From the NCBI RefSeq assembly GCF_003173615.1, contig NZ_QGNA01000003.1:496001-560000 (forward strand): a DNA stretch of 64,000 nucleotides, read 5' to 3'. This DNA is from Falsiroseomonas bella (GTDB lineage Bacteria > Pseudomonadota > Alphaproteobacteria > Acetobacterales > Acetobacteraceae). A model generated the notes under the pieces. It was not told the origin of the DNA. It worked only from the letters and a program-made list of their open reading frames with translations, and did no database searches. Each line of letters begins with the position of its first letter. The first letter of the stretch is position 1. Both the position numbers and the translations under genes were made by a program. Below, one piece after another: positions 18,531-34,981 of the stretch.

Positions 18531-18539
18531 CGCCCTTCG

Positions 18540-18563
18540 CCTCCCCCGCTGCCGCGGGGGAGG
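18540..18563 (+). terminator. hairpin terminator after hpf
   Basis: CCTCCCCCGC (18540-18549) and GCGGGGGAGG (18554-18563) form a perfect 10-bp stem with a TGCC loop, starting 10 bases after the hpf stop and followed by CTTTC. It sits between convergent genes, so it could act in both directions. The arm sequence is close to the arms of the palindromic repeats at 26113-26225 and 32239-32277, so it may descend from the same repeat family. Confidence 0.75.
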
Positions 18564-18581
18564 CTTTCGGGCGCCCTGCCC

Positions 18582-24944: not shown

Positions 24945-26084
24945 TCAGGTCAGGAACTCCTCGAGGATCGCCCGATAGGCGCCGGCCAGCCGACGGAGTT
25001 CCTCCACCGGCGCGCGCTCATCCACCTGGTGCGGCGTTTCGCCCACCGCCCCGAACTCCGCCACCGGGCAGTAGCGCGCGATGAAGCGCGCATCGGAGGT
25101 GCCGCCGCCCGTGTCGAGCTTCGGCGTCACGCCGGTGGCGCGCGCGATGGCGCGCGACAGGCCGTCCACGAAGGGGCCCGGCTCGGTCAGAAAACTCTCG
25201 CCGGAGCATTCGGTGCGCATCGTGTAGCGGGCGCCGCTGGCTTTGAAGGCGGCGTGCAGGCGTTCGGTGAGATGCGCGCTGGTGTGGTGGTCGTTGAAGC
25301 GGATGTTGAGCATCGCCTGGGCCGTGGCCGGGATGACGTTGCTCGTCCGGTTGCCCACGTCGAAGCCCGTGACCTGCAGGGTCGAGGGCGGGAAATGCGC
25401 GCTGCCGTTGTCGAGCGGCGCCGACAGCAGCGGCCCGAGTGCCGCGACCATGCGATGGATCGGGTTGTCGGCGCCGGCCGGATAGGCGCTGTGGCCCTGG
25501 ATGCCGTCCACCGTGACCCAGGCGTTCAGGCTGCCGCGACGGCCGATCTTGATCGTGTCGCCGAGCGCGTGGCGGCTGGTCGGCTCGCCGACGAGGGCCA
25601 TGTCCGGGATCTGGCCATTGGCCTGCATCCATTCGAGGACCTTGGCCGTCCCGTCCACCGACCGGGCCTCCTCGTCGCCCGTGATCAGCAGCGAGACCGA
25701 GCCCTTGTGCGCGGGGTTCGCGGCGAGGAAGTCGGCCAGGCCGGCAAGGAAGGCGGCGATGCCGCCCTTCATGTCGCAGGCGCCGCGGCCGTAGAGCACG
25801 CCATCGCGGATGGTCGCCGAGAACGGGTCGTCGCGCCAGGCGGCGACGTCGCCGGGCGGCACGACATCGGTGTGGCCGGCGTAGCAGAAATGCGGCCCCT
25901 CGGTGCCGCGGCGCGCGAAGAGGTTGTCCACGCGGTAGTCGTCGGGGCCGTAGACGAGGCGCGTGCAGGCGAAGCCCAGCGGCTCGAGGAAGCGCTGCAC
26001 AACGTCCAGCGCGCCGTCATCGGCGGGCGTGACGGAGCGGCAGCGGATCAGCGCCTGGGCGACGGGAACGGGGTCGGCGGTCAT
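24945..26084 (-). CDS. dapE: succinyl-diaminopimelate desuccinylase
   Basis: The 379-residue M20-family enzyme hydrolyses N-succinyl-LL-diaminopimelate in lysine and peptidoglycan precursor synthesis. Two-metal site motifs are CYAGHTDVVPPGD, YGRGACDMKGGIAAFLA and LLITGDEEARSVDGT (catalytic Glu-Glu). The dimerisation domain includes GIQGHSAYPAGADNPIHRM. DTGGGTSDARFIA is characteristic of DapE. ATG 26082-26084 is the likely start; an ATG at 26099 would add 5 residues. The palindromic repeat at 26113-26225 separates it from dapD. Confidence 0.96.
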   Translation of the reverse strand: MTADPVPVAQALIRCRSVTPADDGALDVVQRFLEPLGFACTRLVYGPDDYRVDNLFARRGTEGPHFCYAGHTDVVPPGDVAAWRDDPFSATIRDGVLYGRGACDMKGGIAAFLAGLADFLAANPAHKGSVSLLITGDEEARSVDGTAKVLEWMQANGQIPDMALVGEPTSRHALGDTIKIGRRGSLNAWVTVDGIQGHSAYPAGADNPIHRMVAALGPLLSAPLDNGSAHFPPSTLQVTGFDVGNRTSNVIPATAQAMLNIRFNDHHTSAHLTERLHAAFKASGARYTMRTECSGESFLTEPGPFVDGLSRAIARATGVTPKLDTGGGTSDARFIARYCPVAEFGAVGETPHQVDERAPVEELRRLAGAYRAILEEFLT

Positions 26085-26112
26085 GGCGCGTGGCCGCATC
26101 GCGCGGCACGCG

Positions 26113-26225
26113 ACCCCCCACCCGGCAGCGCTCCGCGCCGCCACCCTCCCCCGCAAGCGGGAGAGGGAGTGTCAGCATGCCCTGCTCCCTCTCCCGCGAA
26201 GCGGGGGAGGGTCGGGGTGGGGGTT
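26113..26225. repeat. REP/BIME-like double palindrome between dapE and dapD
   Basis: Two GC-rich hairpins in opposite orientation, CCCTCCCCCGC-AA-GCGGGAGAGGG (26144-26167) and CCCTCTCCCGC-GAA-GCGGGGGAGGG (from 26187), are mutual inverted copies with one mismatch per stem. GCGGGAGAGGGAG and CTCCCTCTCCCGC around the centre form a perfect 13-bp pair. The outer ends also mirror each other: ACCCCCCACCC at 26113-26123 and GGGGTGGGGGTT at 26214-26225. The unit fills most of the dapD-dapE gap. A half copy lies at 32239-32277. It is probably a non-autonomous palindromic element, and it may also terminate or attenuate dap transcription. Confidence 0.8.
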
Positions 26226-26233
26226 CTCACGCG

Positions 26234-27070
<837 letters not shown>

Positions 27071-27194
27071 GGTGATCGTGGTCCTGGGCTGATGGGCAGG
27101 CCGCGAGGTTTGGAAGAGGGGCGATGCGCTGTCAACGCGGTGACCCGCGGCAGCGTCAACCAGCGGTTCAGCGCCGTGCCGCATTGTGGGCGCC

Positions 27195-28391
27195 ATGACC
27201 GCCGGACCCGCCGATCCCCTCGCCGCCGCGCTGCTGGAGAGCCGCGCGCGCTGGCGTGACCTCGCGCTGCTGGCGGCCGACCTGCTGTTCGAGACCGACG
27301 CCGAGGGCCGCCTGACCTTCCTCGCCCCGGAGGAGGTGCTCGGCCACGCCGCCGAGGCGCTGCTCGGCCATTCCATGCGCCGCCTGCTGGATGCGGAGGA
27401 CGGCCCCGATCCATTCGATCCCGCGGCCCCGCCGCGCGGCCTGCGCGCGTGGTTCCGCACCGCGGTGGGCGAGGCGGCCTGCCTGGAGGTGACGGCGCTC
27501 GCGCTCGATACGGGCGGGCTGCGCGGCGTCGCCCGTGACGTCACGACGGAGGAACGCGACGGGCTCGCCACGGCGCGCATGCTGCGCCGCGCGACCGCGA
27601 TCGCAAGGCTGCTCGGCCTCGCTGGGCGCGGCCGCGCCACGGAGGGCGCGGCCGGTCCGGCGCTCGCGACGCTGCTGGAAGGGCTTTGCCAGGCGCTCGG
27701 CTTCCGCGCCGCCGCGCTGCTGCCGGCGGCGCCGGAGGGCGCGGCGCCGCTGGCGCAGGCCGGCACTGCAAGCGGCGCCTCCGACAGCCTCGCCCTCGGC
27801 CAGGGGCTGGCACTTCGCGTCTGGCGCGCGACGCCCCCGGATGCGGAAGAGAGGGAGCTTCTGGCGGCGCTGGCCCCCGCCCTGGCCGGGCTGCAGGCGG
27901 AGGCCGCACGCCAGGCGGAACTGGCCGCCGCGGCGCGGACCGATCCGCTCACCGGACTGCTGAACCGCCGCGGCTTTGCCGAGGCGCTGGAGCATGGCAG
28001 GGCGCGCCAGCCGGCCGGCGTGATCGCCTATCTCGACATGGACGGGCTGAAGCGGGTGAACGATCGGCACGGCCATGCCGCGGGGGACGCCGCGATCCGC
28101 GCGCTCGCCGGACGGCTGTCGGCGATGGCCGGAGCGGGCGAGCTTGCCGCGCGGCTGGGCGGCGACGAGTTCGCCCTCTGGCTGCCCGGTGCGACGCCTG
28201 GGGATGCGCTGGAACGGTGTGCGTCGCTCGGCGCGCCGGGGCCGCTGCCCGGCTTCCCGGAAGCCGGCACTGCGGCGGTGGCGGCCAGCATCGGCGTCGC
28301 CGAAGTGGCACCCGGCGACAGCGCGGAGGCGCTGATCGCGCGGGCCGATGCCGCGATGTATCACCGCAAGCGCGAAAGGCGCGCCGCATGA
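27195..28391 (+). CDS. PAS-GAF-GGDEF diguanylate cyclase
   Basis: The 398-residue protein has an N-terminal PAS-like segment ([21 protein letters not shown]), a GAF-like middle region and a C-terminal GGDEF domain. The domain begins at [17 protein letters not shown] and has the intact active site GGDEF at residues 322-326. An active site of this form is expected to make cyclic di-GMP. The inhibitory RxxD site is absent from the stretch just before GGDEF, so product inhibition may be missing. No membrane segment is seen. The stop overlaps the DUF2336 gene (ATGA). Confidence 0.9.
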
Positions 28392-29530
28392 GCCACGCCG
28401 CGCTGCGCGAGCGACAGGGCAGCGTCGCCGCACGCACCGCCCTTGCGGCGGATGACCGCACCTCGCCCGAGCTGCTCACCTTCCTGGCCGCCGATCCCGC
28501 GCCCGAGGTGCGCGCCGCCGTCGCGGCCAATGCCGCGACGCCGCCCCAGGCCGGGCTGCTGCTGGCCGAGGATGCCGAGACGGAAGTGCGGGAGGCTCTG
28601 GCGCGCCGCATCGGCCGGCTCGCGCCGGGGCTGACCGCCGCAGCGCAGGACCGGCTCGCGCGCATGACCGGCGCCATCCTCGGGCGACTGGTGGAGGACG
28701 CCGCGGTCGCGGTGCGCGCCGCGCTGTCCGATGCCGTCGCCGGCCTGCCCGACGCGCCGCGCGACCTGATCCTGCGCCTGGCGCGCGACACCGCCCTGCC
28801 GGTGGCCGAGCCCGTCCTGCGGCTCTCGCCCCTGCTGACGGAAGAGGACCTGCTGGCGCTGGTCTCGGCCCCGCCGGCGGCCTTCACCCGCCGCCTGGTC
28901 GCCGCCCGACCGCGCCTGACGGAGCCGGTGACGGAAGCGCTGGCGGGCACCACCGATGCGCCGGCGATTGCGGCGCTGCTGGCGAACCCCTCGGCCGCGA
29001 TCCGGGAAGCCACGCTGGACCGCTTGGCGGCCGGCTCGGCCGGGCAGGATTCGTGGCAGGCGGCGCTGGTGCGCCGGCCGCGTCTGCCGGCCAGGGCGGC
29101 GCGGGCGCTGGGGGAAATCCTGGCCGCCCATCTGCTGCAGGCCCTGGCAAGCCGCCCCGACCTGCCCGAAGGGCTCGCCGAGACGTTGCGGCCGCGAATA
29201 GAGGCCCACCTGGCCGAGTCCGCGGCCAGCCAGGGCGCCGCGCGGGAGGCGGCGCGCAGCGGCGACCGGGCGGCGCTCTCGGCGCTTCTCGCCGCTGCGA
29301 CCGGCTTCGGCGAGGGGCGCGTCGAGGCCGCGCTGGCGTTGCGCAGCCCACGCGCCATCGCGGCGTTGTGCTGGCGCGCGGGCTGGACCGCGGAACTCGC
29401 GGAGGAGGTGCAGTCGGCGCTCGGCGTGCCGCGCCCGCGCGTGCTCCGGGCGAACGTGGAGGGCAGCTGGACCCTCTCCCCGGCCGAGCTCCAATGGCAG
29501 ATCGAGTTGCTGGAGGAACTGCCGGCATAG
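28388..29530 (+). CDS. DUF2336-family HEAT-like repeat protein
   Basis: The 380-residue Ala/Arg/Leu-rich helical protein shows short repeating helices typical of DUF2336: ERQGSVAARTALAADDRTSPELLTFLAADPAPEVRAAVAANAATPP-like units. It also has PVAEPVLRLSPLLTEEDLLALV and RLVAARPRLTEPVTEAL. The family is alphaproteobacterial and of unknown biochemical role, and probably forms a HEAT-type scaffold. Coupling to a diguanylate cyclase by a four-base overlap suggests a partner or regulator in c-di-GMP signalling (inference). Confidence 0.8.
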   Translation: MSHAALRERQGSVAARTALAADDRTSPELLTFLAADPAPEVRAAVAANAATPPQAGLLLAEDAETEVREALARRIGRLAPGLTAAAQDRLARMTGAILGRLVEDAAVAVRAALSDAVAGLPDAPRDLILRLARDTALPVAEPVLRLSPLLTEEDLLALVSAPPAAFTRRLVAARPRLTEPVTEALAGTTDAPAIAALLANPSAAIREATLDRLAAGSAGQDSWQAALVRRPRLPARAARALGEILAAHLLQALASRPDLPEGLAETLRPRIEAHLAESAASQGAAREAARSGDRAALSALLAAATGFGEGRVEAALALRSPRAIAALCWRAGWTAELAEEVQSALGVPRPRVLRANVEGSWTLSPAELQWQIELLEELPA

Positions 29531-29602
29531 CCAATGAACCCGCCCCCGCTTCGCCTGCGGGCCGGTCTTGGCTAGGCTGCGGGCCCGGAAGCAGGATACG
29601 CA

Positions 29603-30583
29603 ATGGCGGACGAGGACTGGACGATCCCGGAGGAGCTGCGGCCCGATCCGGCCGACTATGCCTATGACCTCGGGACGGCGCTGGGTTCGGTGGTGGCCCT
29701 GAAGTCGCGCGTGCCTGCCGATGCCTTCTCGGCCCGCACGCTCGGGACCGAGCGCGAGGGCAGCGGCGTGGTGATCCGCGAGGACGGGCTGGTGCTGACC
29801 ATCGGCTACCTGGTGAGCGAGTCCGAGAGCATCTGGATCACCACCGCCGCCGGCCGCGTCGTGCCGGGCCATGCGCTGGCCTATGACTTCGAGACCGGCT
29901 TCGGCCTGGTGCAGGCGCTCGGCCGGCTGGAGGCGCCGGCGATGCCGCTCGGCCCCGCGCAGACGCCGGAGGCCGGGGTGCAGACCGTGCTCGCCGCCGC
30001 GGCCGGCGAGGACGAGGCGGGCGCGATCGCCTGCTCCATCGTCGCAAAGGAGCCCTTTGCCGGCTACTGGGAATACCTGCTGGAGGAGGCGCTGTTCACG
30101 GCACCGGCGCATCCCTCCTGGGGCGGCGCGGCGCTGATCGGGCCGGACGGCAAGCTGCTCGGCATCGGGTCGCTGGTGCTGCAGCATCGCGACAAGCGCG
30201 GCCGGCGGATGGACCTCAACATGTGCGTCCCCGTCGCCCTGCTGCATCCGATCCTGGACGACCTGCTGAGCTATGGCCGCGTGAACAAGCCGGCGCGGCC
30301 GTGGCTCGGCGTCTATGCCGCCGACCAGGAGGAAGGCGTGGTGGTGGCCTCGGTCGCCAGCAAGGGGCCGGCGGAGCGTGCGGGGCTGCGCGCGGGCGAC
30401 AGGATCCTCTCGATCGAGGGGCATGAGGCGACGGATCTCGCCGGGCTGTGGCGCAGCCTGTGGTCCTGCGGGAATGCGGGCGTGAAGGTGACGCTCTCGG
30501 CCGAGCGCGACGGGCGCCGCATCGACCTCGCGGTCGCGAGCGCAGACCGCGCGAGCTTCCTGAAGGCGCCGCGGCTGCATTGA
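29603..30583 (+). CDS. HtrA/S1C-like PDZ protein lacking the catalytic triad
   Basis: The 326-residue protein has a trypsin-like double-barrel layout (GSGVVIREDGLVLTIGYLV near residues 53-71; WGGAALIGPDGKLLGIGS near 173-190) and a C-terminal PDZ domain (RPWLGVYAADQEEGVVV, GPAERAGLRAGDRILSIEG). Compared with HtrA, His is replaced by Tyr69, Asp by Gly99 and the nucleophile Ser of GNSGG by Trp173. It has no signal peptide. I therefore predict a non-proteolytic, possibly cytoplasmic binding protein. The gene starts 72 bases after DUF2336 and overlaps the RibD-C gene. Confidence 0.88.
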   Translation: MADEDWTIPEELRPDPADYAYDLGTALGSVVALKSRVPADAFSARTLGTEREGSGVVIREDGLVLTIGYLVSESESIWITTAAGRVVPGHALAYDFETGFGLVQALGRLEAPAMPLGPAQTPEAGVQTVLAAAAGEDEAGAIACSIVAKEPFAGYWEYLLEEALFTAPAHPSWGGAALIGPDGKLLGIGSLVLQHRDKRGRRMDLNMCVPVALLHPILDDLLSYGRVNKPARPWLGVYAADQEEGVVVASVASKGPAERAGLRAGDRILSIEGHEATDLAGLWRSLWSCGNAGVKVTLSAERDGRRIDLAVASADRASFLKAPRLH

Positions 30584-31107
30584 AGACGCTGTTCCACTGC
30601 CACATCGCCGTCTCGCTGGACGGCAGGATCGCCCGGGCGGATGGCGCGGTGGATTGGCTGGAGATGGCCGGACCGCCGGAGGAGTTCGGCTTCGCGGCCT
30701 TCTATGCCGAGGTCGACGCCATCCTGATGGGCCGCGGCACCTACGAGGCCGTGCGGCGGATGGGCGCATGGCCGTATCCGGAAAAGCCGGTCTTCGTGGT
30801 GACGCATCGCGACCTGCCCGACAGGCCGCCGGGCGTGGAACCACTTGCCGGCGCGGTGACGACTATCGCGGCAGCGCTCGAGGCGCGCGGCCATCGCCGC
30901 GTCTGGGTGGAAGGCGGCGGCGACCTGCTGCGGCAGATGCTCGCGGCGGGACGGCTCGACGTGCTGGAGATGGCGGTGCTGCCCATCGTGCTCGGCGAGG
31001 GCATCGCGCTGTTTCCCGAGGGCACGCCGGAGGCGCGCTTCGCACTGCGAAGCTGCACGCCGCGCAGCGGCGGCGCGCTGCACGTGATCTACGACCGGCT
31101 TTCGTAG
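30580..31107 (+). CDS. dihydrofolate-reductase-like (RibD C-terminal) family protein
   Basis: The 175-residue protein shows the RibD-C/DHFR fold: HCHIAVSLDGRIARADGAVDWL, DAILMGRGTYEAVRRMG, PVFVVTHRDLP, RVWVEGGGDLLRQMLAAGRLD and LPIVLGEGIALFPE. Such stand-alone proteins are NADPH-dependent reductases of unknown substrate. The start is TTG 30580, which shares bases with the TGA of the preceding gene (TTGA). This matches the coupling style of the region and gives the family-standard N-terminus KTLFHCHIAVSLDG. The 3' end overlaps the convergent flavoprotein gene by 19 bases. Confidence 0.85.
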   Translation: MKTLFHCHIAVSLDGRIARADGAVDWLEMAGPPEEFGFAAFYAEVDAILMGRGTYEAVRRMGAWPYPEKPVFVVTHRDLPDRPPGVEPLAGAVTTIAAALEARGHRRVWVEGGGDLLRQMLAAGRLDVLEMAVLPIVLGEGIALFPEGTPEARFALRSCTPRSGGALHVIYDRLS

Positions 31108-33977
31108 GCCGAAGGCGAGAAGACCGCCGGCGGTCCCTTCCCTCCGCGCAGCGCCTCCGCGATCAGCTCCGCGATCACCGGCGCGAGTGTCCATCCGTTG
31201 AAGGTGACGGCGTGGAACAGGCCCGGCACGCGCTGATCGGCGCCGAGGATCGGGCCGGGGATCAGCACGTTCAGCCCGGTCCAGGCGCGGATCACATGCA
31301 GCCCTTCGATCGCCGGCAGCACGCTGCGCGCCACCCAGAGATTGCCCTCGATGCTGGCGCGCAGGTTGCGCGGGCGGCCCGCCGCGTCGAGCTCGCCCGG
31401 CCAGGCGCCGCCGAGGATCAGATGTCCGGCATCACCCTGCTTGAGGCTGAGATGGCGCGACCCGTGGAGCACCAGCGGGCGCAGCAGTTCCGCCCCCGCT
31501 GCCTCGGTCGCGATCACCTGCTGCACCGTGGCGCGCACCGGGATCGGCGCGCCGAGTCGCGCGGCGATCTGCCCGGCCCAGGGGCCGGCGGCGTTCACCA
31601 CGCGCGCGGCGCGGATCACGCCCTCCGGGGTTTCCGCGCGGAAGACGCTGCCCTCGCGCGAGAGCGCGGTGACGGGCGTCGCGCCACGGATCTCGGCGCC
31701 CGCCTCGCGCGCCAGGCGCAGCAGCGCGGAGAGGCCGCGCAGCGGGTCCATCTGGCCTTCCTCCGCGCAGAAGGCCGCACCCGCGAAGCCGGGTGCGAGC
31801 CAGGGCGCGGCGGCGTAGAGCTCGTTGGCGCCGAGCAGCGAGGAGATCACGCCGAAATCGCGCTCCATCGCGACCTTGTCGGCGAGCGCGCGAAGCTGCG
31901 CCTCGGTTTCCGCCAGCATCAGCCCGCCCTCGGTGCGGATCGCCAGCGCCTCGCCCGACTCGCGCGCGATGTCGCGCCACAGCGCGACGGAGCGTGGCCC
32001 CAAGGTGAGGATCTGCGCCGCGGCGCTTTCCGGCCCTTCCGCCGCGCCGGCGCTGTCGTAGGCATGCAGCTGCACATGCAGGCTGCCGGCATTCGCGGTG
32101 GAAGCGCCCTGCCCCGGCTCGCCGCGATCGAGCGCGACGACATGCAGGCCCTCGCGCGCCGCGGCGCGGGCGATGGCGAGGCCGAGCACGCCAGCACCGA
32201 TGACGAGGAGGTCGCAGGCGGTCTCGGAGCGTGCGCGGCCCCCACCCCGACCCTCCCCCGCATCGCGGGGGAGGGAGACGGCTTCGAAGGATGGCGCCTC
32301 GGTCCATTCCGGCTTTTCCATCGCCAGCGCCAGCGCGGGGATGGGCTTCACCGGCGCGCGCGGCGCGGCCCAGTCGGGCTCGGTCCCGGCGCCCGCGATG
32401 CGCGCGACCGTCGCGGCGCACATCCGCCCCTGGCATCGGCCCATGCCGGCGCGCGTCGCCTTCTTGAGCGACCCGAGCGAACACGCGCCCTGCGCCATCG
32501 CCGCGCGCAGCGCGCCCGCGCTCACTTCCTCGCAGCGGCAGACGACGGTGTCGTCGGCAAGACGCGACGCGTCGAAGCCCGGCACCTCGAACAGGCGCCA
32601 GAGCGCCGCCTGGAACGCCTCGGCGCGCGCGAGCGCCGTGCGGCTCGCGGCGTCGTCCGGCACCGCGCGGCCGAGATCGCGTGCCGCGGCGAGCCCCGCG
32701 AGGCGACCGCGCGCCAGCGCGATGCGGGCGCCGCCGATCTGCGCCCCGTCGCCGATGGCGAGCACCTGCGCGAGGCTGGTTCGGCCATCCGGCCCGGTGA
32801 TCGTTTCCAATCGGCCGAGCCCGCTGTCGGTGAAGCGATGCGCGCAGCCGAGCGCACGCGCCAGCCCCGTCTCCGGCTGGAAGCCGAGATTGAGCGCGAC
32901 GGCCTGCGCCGTGACCGCGCGCGGGCCGCCCGGCGCTTCGGCATGCAGCGTCAGCCCGTCCGTGGCCGGCTCGACCCGCTCCGGCATCGCGCCCCAGATC
33001 ACCTTCACGCCGGCGCGGCGCAAAACGGCGAGATAGCGCACGCCATCCCAGGCGAGGTCCGGCGCACGCGCGGCCAGCGTGACGGCCTCGCGCCAGGCGC
33101 GGAAGCCGGGCTTCGGCGCGGCCTCCAGCACGGCCGCGACCTCGACGCCGCCTTCCACCAATTCGCAGGCGAGCTGCAGGTTCAGCGGGCCGTTGCCCGC
33201 CACCACCACGCGGCGCCCCGGCGAGACGCGGTTGGCGCGCGCGAGGGTCTGCAAGGCGCCCGTCGTCATCACGCCGGGCAGCGTCCAGCCAGGGATCGGC
33301 ACGGGCCGCTCATGCGCGCCGGGCGCGAGCACGAGGCGGCGCGGCCGCGCCACCATGTTCCGGCCGCCGACCAGCACGCCGAGCTCATCCGGCGCGAAGG
33401 CGCCCCACACCGTCGCCCCGTGCTGGAAGACGACGCCCGCCGCCTCGGCACGCGCGCGCAGCGCCGCGGCCTGGCGGAACTGGCGATCCGGTGCGGCATG
33501 CGCGTGGCTTGCCGCGAGCGGCTTCAGATACTGCCCGCCCGCTGCGTCGCGCTCGTCGAGCAGCACAACGGAACATCCCGCCTCGGCCGCGGCGATGGCG
33601 GCGGATAGACCGGCCGGTCCCGCGCCGACCACGAGCACGTCGGGCGCAATCTCGGCGGCCTGCGATGCCGGTTCCGGCGCGAGCGGCGCGGGCGCTGCGG
33701 GCGGAGCGCTCTCCACCACCATCCCCGGCGCAACCTTCGCGAGGCAGGCGCGCTGGTTGGCGCGGCCGTCGATGGTGACAAGGCAGTCGAAGCAGGCACC
33801 CATGCCGCACCACAATCCGCGTGGCGCGCCGCTCGCGGTGTGGCGGTAGGCAAGGATTCCGGCAGCGGACAGCGCGGCTGCCACGGTTTCGCCGGGCAGC
33901 GCGGAAAGCGGGCGACAGTCGAAGGTGATGCCCACCGCTTCGGCAGACGGCGTGATGTGCGGATGGATCAATCGCAT
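31089..33977 (-). CDS. three-part fused flavoprotein dehydrogenase (HcnA-HcnB-HcnC / D-hydroxyproline dehydrogenase type)
   Basis: The 962-residue protein fuses modules that are usually separate subunits. Residues 20-90 form a 2Fe-2S ferredoxin-like domain (Cys57, 62, 65, 78; HcnA/SoxX-like). Residues 112-430 form an FAD/NAD domain (VVGAGPAGL), followed by a BFD-type 2Fe-2S site (Cys480, 482, 515, 520; HcnB-like). Residues 588-955 form a DAO-family oxidase (VIGAGVLGLAIA; HcnC-like). Known relatives are hydrogen cyanide synthase, opine oxidases and D-hydroxyproline dehydrogenase. Residues 568-583 are encoded by a palindromic repeat. The divergent DapA-like lyase gene favours an imino- or amino-acid dehydrogenase over cyanide production. 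ATG 33975-33977 lacks a clear ribosome-binding site. Confidence 0.88.
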   Translation of the reverse strand: MRLIHPHITPSAEAVGITFDCRPLSALPGETVAAALSAAGILAYRHTASGAPRGLWCGMGACFDCLVTIDGRANQRACLAKVAPGMVVESAPPAAPAPLAPEPASQAAEIAPDVLVVGAGPAGLSAAIAAAEAGCSVVLLDERDAAGGQYLKPLAASHAHAAPDRQFRQAAALRARAEAAGVVFQHGATVWGAFAPDELGVLVGGRNMVARPRRLVLAPGAHERPVPIPGWTLPGVMTTGALQTLARANRVSPGRRVVVAGNGPLNLQLACELVEGGVEVAAVLEAAPKPGFRAWREAVTLAARAPDLAWDGVRYLAVLRRAGVKVIWGAMPERVEPATDGLTLHAEAPGGPRAVTAQAVALNLGFQPETGLARALGCAHRFTDSGLGRLETITGPDGRTSLAQVLAIGDGAQIGGARIALARGRLAGLAAARDLGRAVPDDAASRTALARAEAFQAALWRLFEVPGFDASRLADDTVVCRCEEVSAGALRAAMAQGACSLGSLKKATRAGMGRCQGRMCAATVARIAGAGTEPDWAAPRAPVKPIPALALAMEKPEWTEAPSFEAVSLPRDAGEGRGGGRARSETACDLLVIGAGVLGLAIARAAAREGLHVVALDRGEPGQGASTANAGSLHVQLHAYDSAGAAEGPESAAAQILTLGPRSVALWRDIARESGEALAIRTEGGLMLAETEAQLRALADKVAMERDFGVISSLLGANELYAAAPWLAPGFAGAAFCAEEGQMDPLRGLSALLRLAREAGAEIRGATPVTALSREGSVFRAETPEGVIRAARVVNAAGPWAGQIAARLGAPIPVRATVQQVIATEAAGAELLRPLVLHGSRHLSLKQGDAGHLILGGAWPGELDAAGRPRNLRASIEGNLWVARSVLPAIEGLHVIRAWTGLNVLIPGPILGADQRVPGLFHAVTFNGWTLAPVIAELIAEALRGGKGPPAVFSPSAYESRS
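32239..32277 (-). repeat. half copy of the palindromic repeat, translated in frame
   Basis: CCCTCCCCCGC (32251-32261) and GCGGGGGAGGG (32265-32275) form a perfect 11-bp stem with an ATC loop, flanked by a CCCCCACCCCGA tract. Read on the minus strand it nearly matches the right half of the repeat at 26113-26225, including the TCGGGGTGGGGG tail. It lies inside the flavoprotein gene, at the junction between the HcnB-like and HcnC-like parts, and is translated as SLPRDAGEGRGGGR. Confidence 0.8.
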
Positions 33978-33997
33978 CGCAGGGGGGTTGTCGTACC

Positions 33998-34043
33998 GGT
34001 CGAATGGCGGTCGGATGTTCGCACGACACGTCCCGGCACGACA
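33998..34043. promoter_or_regulatory. paired direct repeats in the flavoprotein/lyase divergent promoter region
   Basis: The 80-bp gap holds GGTCGAATG (33998-34006) and GGTCGGATG (34009-34017), spaced exactly 11 bp. It also holds two perfect GCACGACA copies at 34021-34028 and 34036-34043, spaced 15 bp. An 11-bp period places the first pair on the same DNA face, as for a regulator binding tandem sites between divergent genes. No regulator gene is adjacent. Confidence 0.4.
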
Positions 34044-34057
34044 GGGAGCCCCGGACC

Positions 34058-34981
34058 ATGGCCCCAAGGGCATCACGTGAGCCTTTCCGCGGCTGCTACA
34101 CCGTGCTCATCACGCCCTTCACCGAAGGCGGCGCGGCGGTGGACATCAAGGCGCTGGAGCGCCTCGTGGAGTTCCAGATCCGCGAGGGCATACGCGGCCT
34201 GATCCCGCTCGGCTCGACCGGCGAGTTCCTCTCGGTCTCGCCTGAGGAACGCACGGCCATCGTCGAGACGGTGGTGCGCACCGCCGCGGGCCGCGTGCCC
34301 GTGCTGGTCGGCACCGGCGCCGAGGACACGCGGGAGGTGGTGCGCACCAGCAGGGAAGCCGAGGCGCTCGGCGCCGACGGCGTGATGATCATCCCGCCCT
34401 TCTATTCGGTGCCGACGCTGGCCGAGCTGATCCACCACTACGACACGGTGGCGAAGGCCATCGGCATCCCGATCATGGTCTACAACAACCCGGCGACGGC
34501 CAATGTGGACATGACGCCGGAAATGCTGGCCGAGATCAGCCGCATCCCGAACTGCCGCTACGTGAAGGAGAGCACGCTGGAAGTCACCCGCGTGCGCGAC
34601 ATCGTGGCGCTCTGCGGCGACAGGATGGAGGTCTTCGCCGGCGTGCTGGGCTACGAAAGCGCATGGCTCGGCGCGATCGGCTGGGTGGCGGTGTGCTCCA
34701 ACCTCGCGCCGAAGCTCTCGACGGAGATGTTCCACGCGGCGGCGTTCGACAAGGACATGGACAGGGCGCTGGCGCTGTATCGGCGCCTTGCGCCGCTGCT
34801 GCCCTGGGTGGGCGGGCCGCGCTACGTCTCGGGCACCAAGGCCGGGTTCCGGCTGATGGGCATGGACATGGGCAATCCGCGTCCGCCGCGCCTGCCACTG
34901 CCGGGTGCGGACATGCCGCGGCTTGCCGCGGTTCTGCAGACCATGGGCCTGCTGGCCGAAGGCGCCAGGCAGGCGGCCTAG
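34058..34981 (+). CDS. DapA/NAL-family class I aldolase or lyase
   Basis: The 307-residue TIM barrel belongs to the dihydrodipicolinate synthase/N-acetylneuraminate lyase family. It has the substrate-carboxylate loop LIPLGSTGEF, the catalytic tyrosine region MVYNNPATANVDM and the Schiff-base lysine in RYVKESTLEVTRV. The family includes delta1-pyrroline-4-hydroxy-2-carboxylate deaminase, which works next to D-hydroxyproline dehydrogenase. The divergent three-part flavoprotein makes that, or a related keto-acid lyase or deaminase, the best guess; it is unlikely to be biosynthetic DapA. ATG 34058 has AGGGAG about 10 bases upstream. Confidence 0.85.
   Translation: MAPRASREPFRGCYTVLITPFTEGGAAVDIKALERLVEFQIREGIRGLIPLGSTGEFLSVSPEERTAIVETVVRTAAGRVPVLVGTGAEDTREVVRTSREAEALGADGVMIIPPFYSVPTLAELIHHYDTVAKAIGIPIMVYNNPATANVDMTPEMLAEISRIPNCRYVKESTLEVTRVRDIVALCGDRMEVFAGVLGYESAWLGAIGWVAVCSNLAPKLSTEMFHAAAFDKDMDRALALYRRLAPLLPWVGGPRYVSGTKAGFRLMGMDMGNPRPPRLPLPGADMPRLAAVLQTMGLLAEGARQAA

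Follow-up and report, generated by a model that had tools for sequence, protein, structure and literature searches.

An in-frame REP-like palindromic repeat in the linker of a fused flavoprotein of Falsiroseomonas bella

Within a window of 64,000 nucleotides from Falsiroseomonas bella (the whole stretch of DNA that was analyzed; contig NZ_QGNA01000003.1, positions 496,001 to 560,000), a palindromic unit resembling repetitive extragenic palindromic (REP) sequences is translated in frame in the linker of a fused flavoprotein. The features concerned are listed below in window coordinates, and G and L numbers are our handles for genomes and loci.

31089-34076, minus strand: fused flavoprotein, 995 amino acids from the GTG at 34076, with a likely start at the ATG at 33977 (open reading frame, Pfam)
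32397-32546, minus strand: BFD-like 2Fe-2S domain, residues 511-560, the last domain ahead of the linker (Pfam PF04324)
32239-32277, minus strand: REP unit, coding residues 600-613 (VSLPRDAGEGRGGG) (sequence reading, linker alignment, genome-wide family)
32251-32261, no strand assigned: left stem arm CCCTCCCCCGC (sequence reading)
32265-32275, no strand assigned: right stem arm GCGGGGGAGGG (sequence reading)
31155-32213, minus strand: DAO domain, residues 622-974, the first domain past the linker (Pfam PF01266)
26113-26225, no strand assigned: two-unit intergenic copy of the REP, units opposite and tails outward (right unit, G000:C8:522201)

On the plus strand, positions 32239-32277 read directly as CCCCCACCCCGACCCTCCCCCGCATCGCGGGGGAGGGAG, a C-rich unpaired tail joined to a hairpin whose two arms pair at 11 of 11 positions around the loop ATC. 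In the minus-strand reading frame, the unit is translated in frame within ...EAVSLPRDAGEGRGGGRARSE..., and peptide residues of the SLPRDAGEGRGGGR type form the repeat-encoded part of the flavoprotein linker. These residues are 600-613 counted from the GTG at 34076 and 567-580 counted from the likely ATG start (residue 34), in close agreement with the residues 568-583 given by the first-pass annotation. This annotation had also described an 11-bp hairpin with a tail resembling the right half of the repeat at 26113-26225; indeed, the tail of that right unit is identical to the one at 32239-32277, and the stem is identical except for one C-to-T change in an arm. Moreover, stop codons are absent from all six frames of the flavoprotein unit, so an insertion with a length change divisible by three stays open.

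Based on Pfam, the flavoprotein contains, in order, Fer2_4 (2Fe-2S, residues 46-124), Pyr_redox_2 (FAD/NAD oxidoreductase, 146-450), the BFD-type 2Fe-2S domain (511-560), and DAO (FAD amine/amino-acid oxidase, 622-974). The bounds of the last two domains place the repeat at a domain junction, between the two enzyme parts as had been proposed. Among solved folds in the PDB, the nearest are those of sarcosine oxidase alpha and of P. horikoshii L-proline dehydrogenase, in which the alpha and beta chains that match are separate. The AlphaFold model of the flavoprotein (35 sequences) has a mean predicted local distance difference test score (pLDDT) of 87.7 and a predicted template modeling score (pTM) of 0.89. 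Its pLDDT drops below 50 only in residues 1-32, 604-614, and 675-677, and residues 604-614 lie within the repeat bar one residue. The lowest internal confidence falls at the repeat-encoded residues, and the model predicts a disordered linker.

The F. bella genome (5.94 Mb in 14 contigs) was searched for further copies. The stem pattern (loop of 3, up to 3 mismatches) gave 72 matches versus 2 for the reversed pattern, and the tail-plus-arm pattern (up to 3 mismatches) gave 59 + 53 = 112 matches versus 3 + 4 = 7 for the control. A 22-base tail-plus-arm pattern with two degenerate positions matched without any mismatch at 42 places, the flavoprotein copy included. The repeat singled out by the first-pass annotation is thus one of many in this genome. 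Elements were built from 100 listed of the 112 places, to which all element counts for F. bella refer, and comprised 104 units in 85 elements. The family consensus consists of the tail CCCCACCCCGA, the stem CCCTCCCCCGC/GCGGGGGAGGG, and a loop of 2-3 nt; the stem is present at up to 4 mismatches in 104/104 units, with a loop of 3 in 59, of 2 in 44, and of 4 in 1. Most elements are single units. The two-unit elements (19/85) have their units in opposite orientation in 19/19 cases, with tails outward in 16/19 and unit starts 52-79 bp apart.

With a 39-nt unit in this many copies and frequent inverted pairs, the family resembles REPs in the broad sense, which are palindromic units of 20-40 bp in many copies. 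It falls outside the two described REP superfamilies, GTAG and CGTC: within the 8 nt past the stem, on either strand, CGTC occurs in at most 6 and GTAG in 1 of the 104 units, and their 18-nt tails contain CGTC in 2 and GTAG in none. Additionally, the Y1 tyrosine transposase (Y1_Tnp, PF01797) of the REP-associated tyrosine transposase (RAYT) type, which accompanies RAYT-associated REPs, was found in none of the 15 genus genomes, F. bella included, in a search restricted to this transposase family (control matched in 5/14). The tail-plus-arm pattern (up to 2 mismatches) matched in 15/15 genus genomes, 2 to 196 times each, versus 0-2 for the reversed pattern; the exceptions are G012 (2 versus 1), which has no excess over the control, and G003 (3 versus 0), which hardly has one. 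A search of Rfam with positions 25900-34100 at E up to 1 returned two matches only, both to miRNA families, far below the gathering scores, and both in the intergenic pair.

Copies were assigned to genes by a codon-usage test on the two flanks of each element. This test called 1428 of 2000 random window positions in-gene and therefore misses some, so the in-gene counts may be somewhat low. In F. bella, 3 of the 85 elements lie clearly in frame in genes, with one further weak case; the three are the flavoprotein, a DUF4011/AAA_11/MTES_1575 helicase (Pfam), and dnaE2. In Roseomonas sp. AR75, where 91 elements were built from 100 of the 145 places (up to 1 mismatch), 4 are clearly in-gene and 2 more weakly so. 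The clear copies lie in the same helicase, dnaE2, an imuB-like gene, and a poly(A)/CCA polymerase; the decayed flavoprotein copy of AR75 is not among the places listed for this genome. In Pfam, dnaE2 matches DNA_pol3_alpha, finger, and HHH_6, and the polymerase matches PolyA_pol, while the imuB-like gene, without a Pfam match, was named from its sequence and place. The copy in the AR75 polymerase (L283, contig 6, 499705-499840) is itself a two-unit copy in frame, and one further protein carries a weakly called in-frame repeat, AMPGQPPPQPSPASRERES, in both species (L125, G000:C7:862932; L222, AR75 C1:1168884). The family clearly avoids genes and is predominantly extragenic, as are REPs in the broad sense; this is the outcome of the comparison of intergenic and in-gene copies that the first-pass annotation had proposed.

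The flavoprotein was then compared with its relatives. Matches at E 1e-100 occur in 14/15 genus genomes; those of Roseomonas sp. MO-31 and F. oryziterrae are in pieces on short contigs, that of G011 is truncated where its contig ends, and one TGA is present in each of two rows. At E 1e-200, matches occur in 31/150 family genomes, representing 25/102 genera, with F. bella counted among the 31; the G142 match ends ahead of the second half, and G019 and G081 have one TGA. Linkers were cut from 80 of 96 loci, inside and outside the genus; 63 of them are distinct, and among these only the linkers of F. bella, AR75, and MO-31 contain the repeat. Scored against the unit, these three reach 36, 28, and 34, respectively, with a next best score of 15, and 0/200 codon shuffles reached the score for each of the three. 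The AR75 linker holds a decayed copy in the orientation of F. bella, in frame, whereas MO-31 holds an intact copy in the opposite orientation, with the coding strand reading CCCCCACCCCGACCCTCCCCCGCCAGCGGGGGAGGGAG. The aligned linker of F. oryziterrae, which is not among the 63 scored, is without the repeat. Measured between the last F and the conserved C, the linker is 17 residues long in F. oryziterrae and G012, compared with 23 in F. bella and AR75 and 21 in MO-31, a net growth of +6 (F. bella, AR75) and +4 (MO-31), below the 13 codons of a 39-nt unit. Filled and empty versions of the linker exist side by side, ordinary linkers are variable, and the repeat-encoded residues are not common to the relatives, distant fused proteins included. 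Neither of the conditions that the first-pass annotation had named as refuting, shared linker residues in distant fused proteins or a genome lacking further copies, is borne out.

Relatives with separate genes (L033-L036) are paralogues at about 36-48% identity. Moreover, MO-31 has an unfused homologue pair (L031, G004:C5:35683-38403), whose junction is one of the 63 distinct linkers. Its halves share a reading frame and are separated by a single TGA, without a repeat, which pictures how a fusion can arise without one.

The repeat codons of F. bella and AR75 differ at 6/42 bases (14.3%), compared with 13.2-15.9% in the domains; 4/14 codons differ nonsynonymously and 2 synonymously. In the AR75 flavoprotein copy, 3/11 stem pairs, counted by eye, are lost without compensation, while the frame is kept. 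The helicase repeat, found in 2/13 genomes (F. bella and AR75), keeps 11/11 pairs in both species by the same count, so decay is not universal.

These observations argue strongly that a REP-like unit was inserted in frame into the already existing linker of an old fusion, since related species without the repeat or with a reversed repeat indicate that the fusion is older than the repeat. The first-pass annotation had offered two origins. In-frame insertion in the style of Rickettsia palindromic elements (RPEs) is supported by the filled and empty versions of the site, the frame-keeping decay in AR75, and the opposite copy in MO-31. The other, that two separate genes with the repeat between them fused through it and left the linker as a fossil of an intergenic repeat, was rejected and appears highly improbable, even though the family is mostly intergenic and separate-gene paralogues exist. 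The separate-gene relatives seen are those distant paralogues, the fusion is present in 31/150 family genomes and most of the genus, and the other 60 of the 63 linkers, fused orthologues included, are repeat-free. In particular, repeat-free fused orthologues branch outside the group of F. bella, AR75, and MO-31, which rules out fusion through the repeat, and a single TGA between genes in one frame, as in L031, would be an easier route to fusion. Accordingly worded, the statement that a non-coding repeat had become a protein linker holds for a part of the linker but not for the linker itself, which already existed. A G+C-rich genome whose other linkers are Pro-rich might also be thought to yield such a likeness by chance from Pro/Gly linker codons; with 42 exact genome matches of the 22-base pattern, a rare reversed pattern, and no codon shuffle reaching the linker score, this is scarcely credible. 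Finally, the hairpin might act at the RNA level in the gene, through pausing between domains or mRNA stability, and be kept for that. The perfect 11-bp stem at a domain junction and the full helicase stem in both species would suit such a role, but it is improbable given the uncompensated loss of pairs in AR75, the many orthologues (most of them) without the repeat, and a 59-nt fold that is unexceptional for its composition (z -1.32, 19/200 shuffles as good).

Within the reading of insertion into an existing linker, the number of insertions has to be weighed. The gene tree calculated without the linker unites F. bella with AR75 (99.9/100) and MO-31 with F. oryziterrae (95.7/96); support for the node that combines both pairs is 93.1/88. 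As F. oryziterrae is empty, this tree needs at least 2 changes of state. The opposite orientation of the MO-31 copy favors two insertions, which were probably independent. A single two-unit insertion in the ancestor of all four species, followed by the loss of one unit per lineage and of both in F. oryziterrae, is a less likely course, although several points speak for it and weigh against two events. Pairs with outward tails are the usual layout of two-unit copies (16/19), which makes such an insertion with losses possible, and the orientations would also fit if F. bella and AR75 had lost the left unit, MO-31 the right one, and F. oryziterrae both. Furthermore, MO-31 has the left-hand unit beside more of the left flank, and F. 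bella and AR75 have the right-hand unit beside more of the right flank. The tree is also built from a single gene, which is fragmentary in MO-31 and F. oryziterrae, and this pair was not settled by an earlier tree from less sequence. However, a single two-unit insertion requires three in-frame losses, and the 17-residue linker of F. oryziterrae equals that of the repeat-free G012, with no remnant seen by eye (this linker being outside the scored set). For the insertion reading as a whole, the repeat linkers known number only three, two of them from one event, and the linker is known from the gene sequence rather than from the protein.

Under the favored reading, an old fusion of two catalytic flavoprotein parts would have possessed a tolerant linker, about 17 residues long, ahead of the conserved C in the second part. 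A unit of the REP-like family, spread in Roseomonas/Falsiroseomonas, would have entered this linker in the ancestor of F. bella and AR75, and in the MO-31 lineage a unit would have entered in the opposite orientation, probably independently. Because the net growth of +6/+4 residues is smaller than a 39-nt unit, part of the old linker was presumably replaced or deleted at or after insertion; the route of repeat movement, like this replacement, we infer. Selection would then keep the reading frame and not necessarily the hairpin, and the repeat product would be an unstructured spacer, probably with no function beyond spacing.

Similar events are seen at other junctions of the genus. At the dnaE2 junction, from about DWDC(T/A/M)LE to LRLGL, in-frame palindromes are present in 7 of the 14 resolved genus genomes and differ even between sister species (F. 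bella, L302, G000:C7:923745-924791; six other genus genomes, L301 and L303-L307). The anchor-to-anchor length is 58-88 residues in these seven compared with 17-22 in the other seven. The anchors required an open frame, so out-of-frame repeats would be missed in this count, and G002 was excluded as out of frame. In G002 (L330/L318/L311, G002:C27, about 31.3-32.2 kb), two frames part at the repeat-prone junction with no repeat seen, which may be a frameshift or an assembly error. On the flavoprotein tree, which may not be the tree of dnaE2 and whose G010 and G012 nodes are weak, the presence of the dnaE2 repeat requires at least 4 changes. We had considered a rule that insertion always replaces about 24 nt (flavoprotein +6/+4, helicase +4/+5); it was discarded, as the gain in dnaE2 amounts to tens of residues. 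Plasmid matches to the dnaE2 piece carry the annotation error-prone DNA polymerase. Among 6 of the 782 matching plasmid records, that of R. mucosa has 22 residues without a strong palindrome, that of S. meliloti has 38 residues with a 9-bp palindrome, and four are without anchors.

At the imuB junction (SPLV to LLDI(T/A)G), palindromes are present in 2 of the 11 genomes with both flanks, F. bella (L321) and AR75 (L298), and the other 9 are empty. These 11 of 15 genomes have both flanks in the stretch and include G010, the source of the query; F. oryziterrae, MO-31, and G007 have one flank, and G002 has none. The two palindromes differ, that of F. bella being a 12-bp stem of another sequence type and that of AR75 belonging to the flavoprotein repeat family. 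The exact second type, CCCTCTCCCCCC-N3-GGGGGGAGAGGG, occurs in 6/340 loci, all of them imuB or dnaE2 stretches and some overlapping, among loci picked for other reasons. At every readable row of the dnaE2, imuB, and flavoprotein junctions, the insert is in frame, and the palindrome or its orientation differs in neighboring species. We claim this junction pattern for the genus alone. It is possible, although doubtful, that palindromes of more than one type repeatedly enter the same few junctions in frame by site-directed insertion or template switching without a Y1 transposase. If true, the repeats would be a steady source of new linkers, particularly in the SOS mutasome pair ImuB-DnaE2.

Elsewhere in the window, the flavoprotein gene has a DapA-family gene and an amino-acid ABC transporter as neighbors, which suggests a role in amino-acid or imino-acid catabolism. 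A different G+C-rich palindrome followed by TTTC, at 18539-18564, may be a terminator or a repeat remnant.

RPEs, the classic case of such repeats, are palindromic elements that are translated as in-frame parts of functionally unrelated proteins. The Falsiroseomonas elements resemble them in their in-frame insertion in unrelated proteins with empty sites in relatives (flavoprotein, helicase, dnaE2, and imuB), but they are mostly single units of another stem type, and the comparison is one of likeness, not of aligned sequences. With REPINs and RAYT-associated REPs, they share short palindromes and inverted pairs at the spacing given above, but the genus genomes searched lack Y1_Tnp. The closest precedent is a study of intragenic REPs in several species by Di Nocera et al. 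2013 (PMC3733652). The REPs described there are short palindromes that carry an unpaired end; they lie mainly between genes, frequently as inverted pairs, and in a few cases in frame in unrelated proteins. DnaE2 and other DNA repair genes are named as targets, flexible linkers are proposed as places where insertions are tolerated, and in two Xanthomonas species recB is hit at about the same site. The study also states that CGTC repeats, apparently without a dedicated transposase, are missing in Acetobacteraceae, that RPE-4 and RPE-6 are CGTC-type REPs, and that RPE-1 is longer (PMC3733652).

In-frame REPs, DnaE2 included, are already known (PMC3733652), and the present family is alike in its mostly intergenic location, frequent inverted pairs, few in-frame copies, and a hit in DnaE2. 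In contrast, the Falsiroseomonas unit has an 11-bp stem, a loop of 2-3, and a long unpaired C-rich tail with neither GTAG nor CGTC. To that study (PMC3733652), the present analysis adds the comparison of filled and empty sites, the insertion of a unit in opposite orientation into one linker, and a junction hot spot across many species. Full-text searching turned up no paper on repetitive extragenic palindromic sequences in Roseomonas, and the literature searches yielded no description of this repeat type in the genus, of one linker being used again in opposite orientation, or of the junction hot spots. Against the known cases, what is striking is that the same junctions are used repeatedly.

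For the question of how REPs move without a RAYT transposase, in-gene copies give clean pairs of filled and empty sites, seldom available from intergenic copies. At the flavoprotein linker, and especially at the dnaE2 junction (7/14), it becomes a countable series of events in close species, in which repeats supply new linkers.

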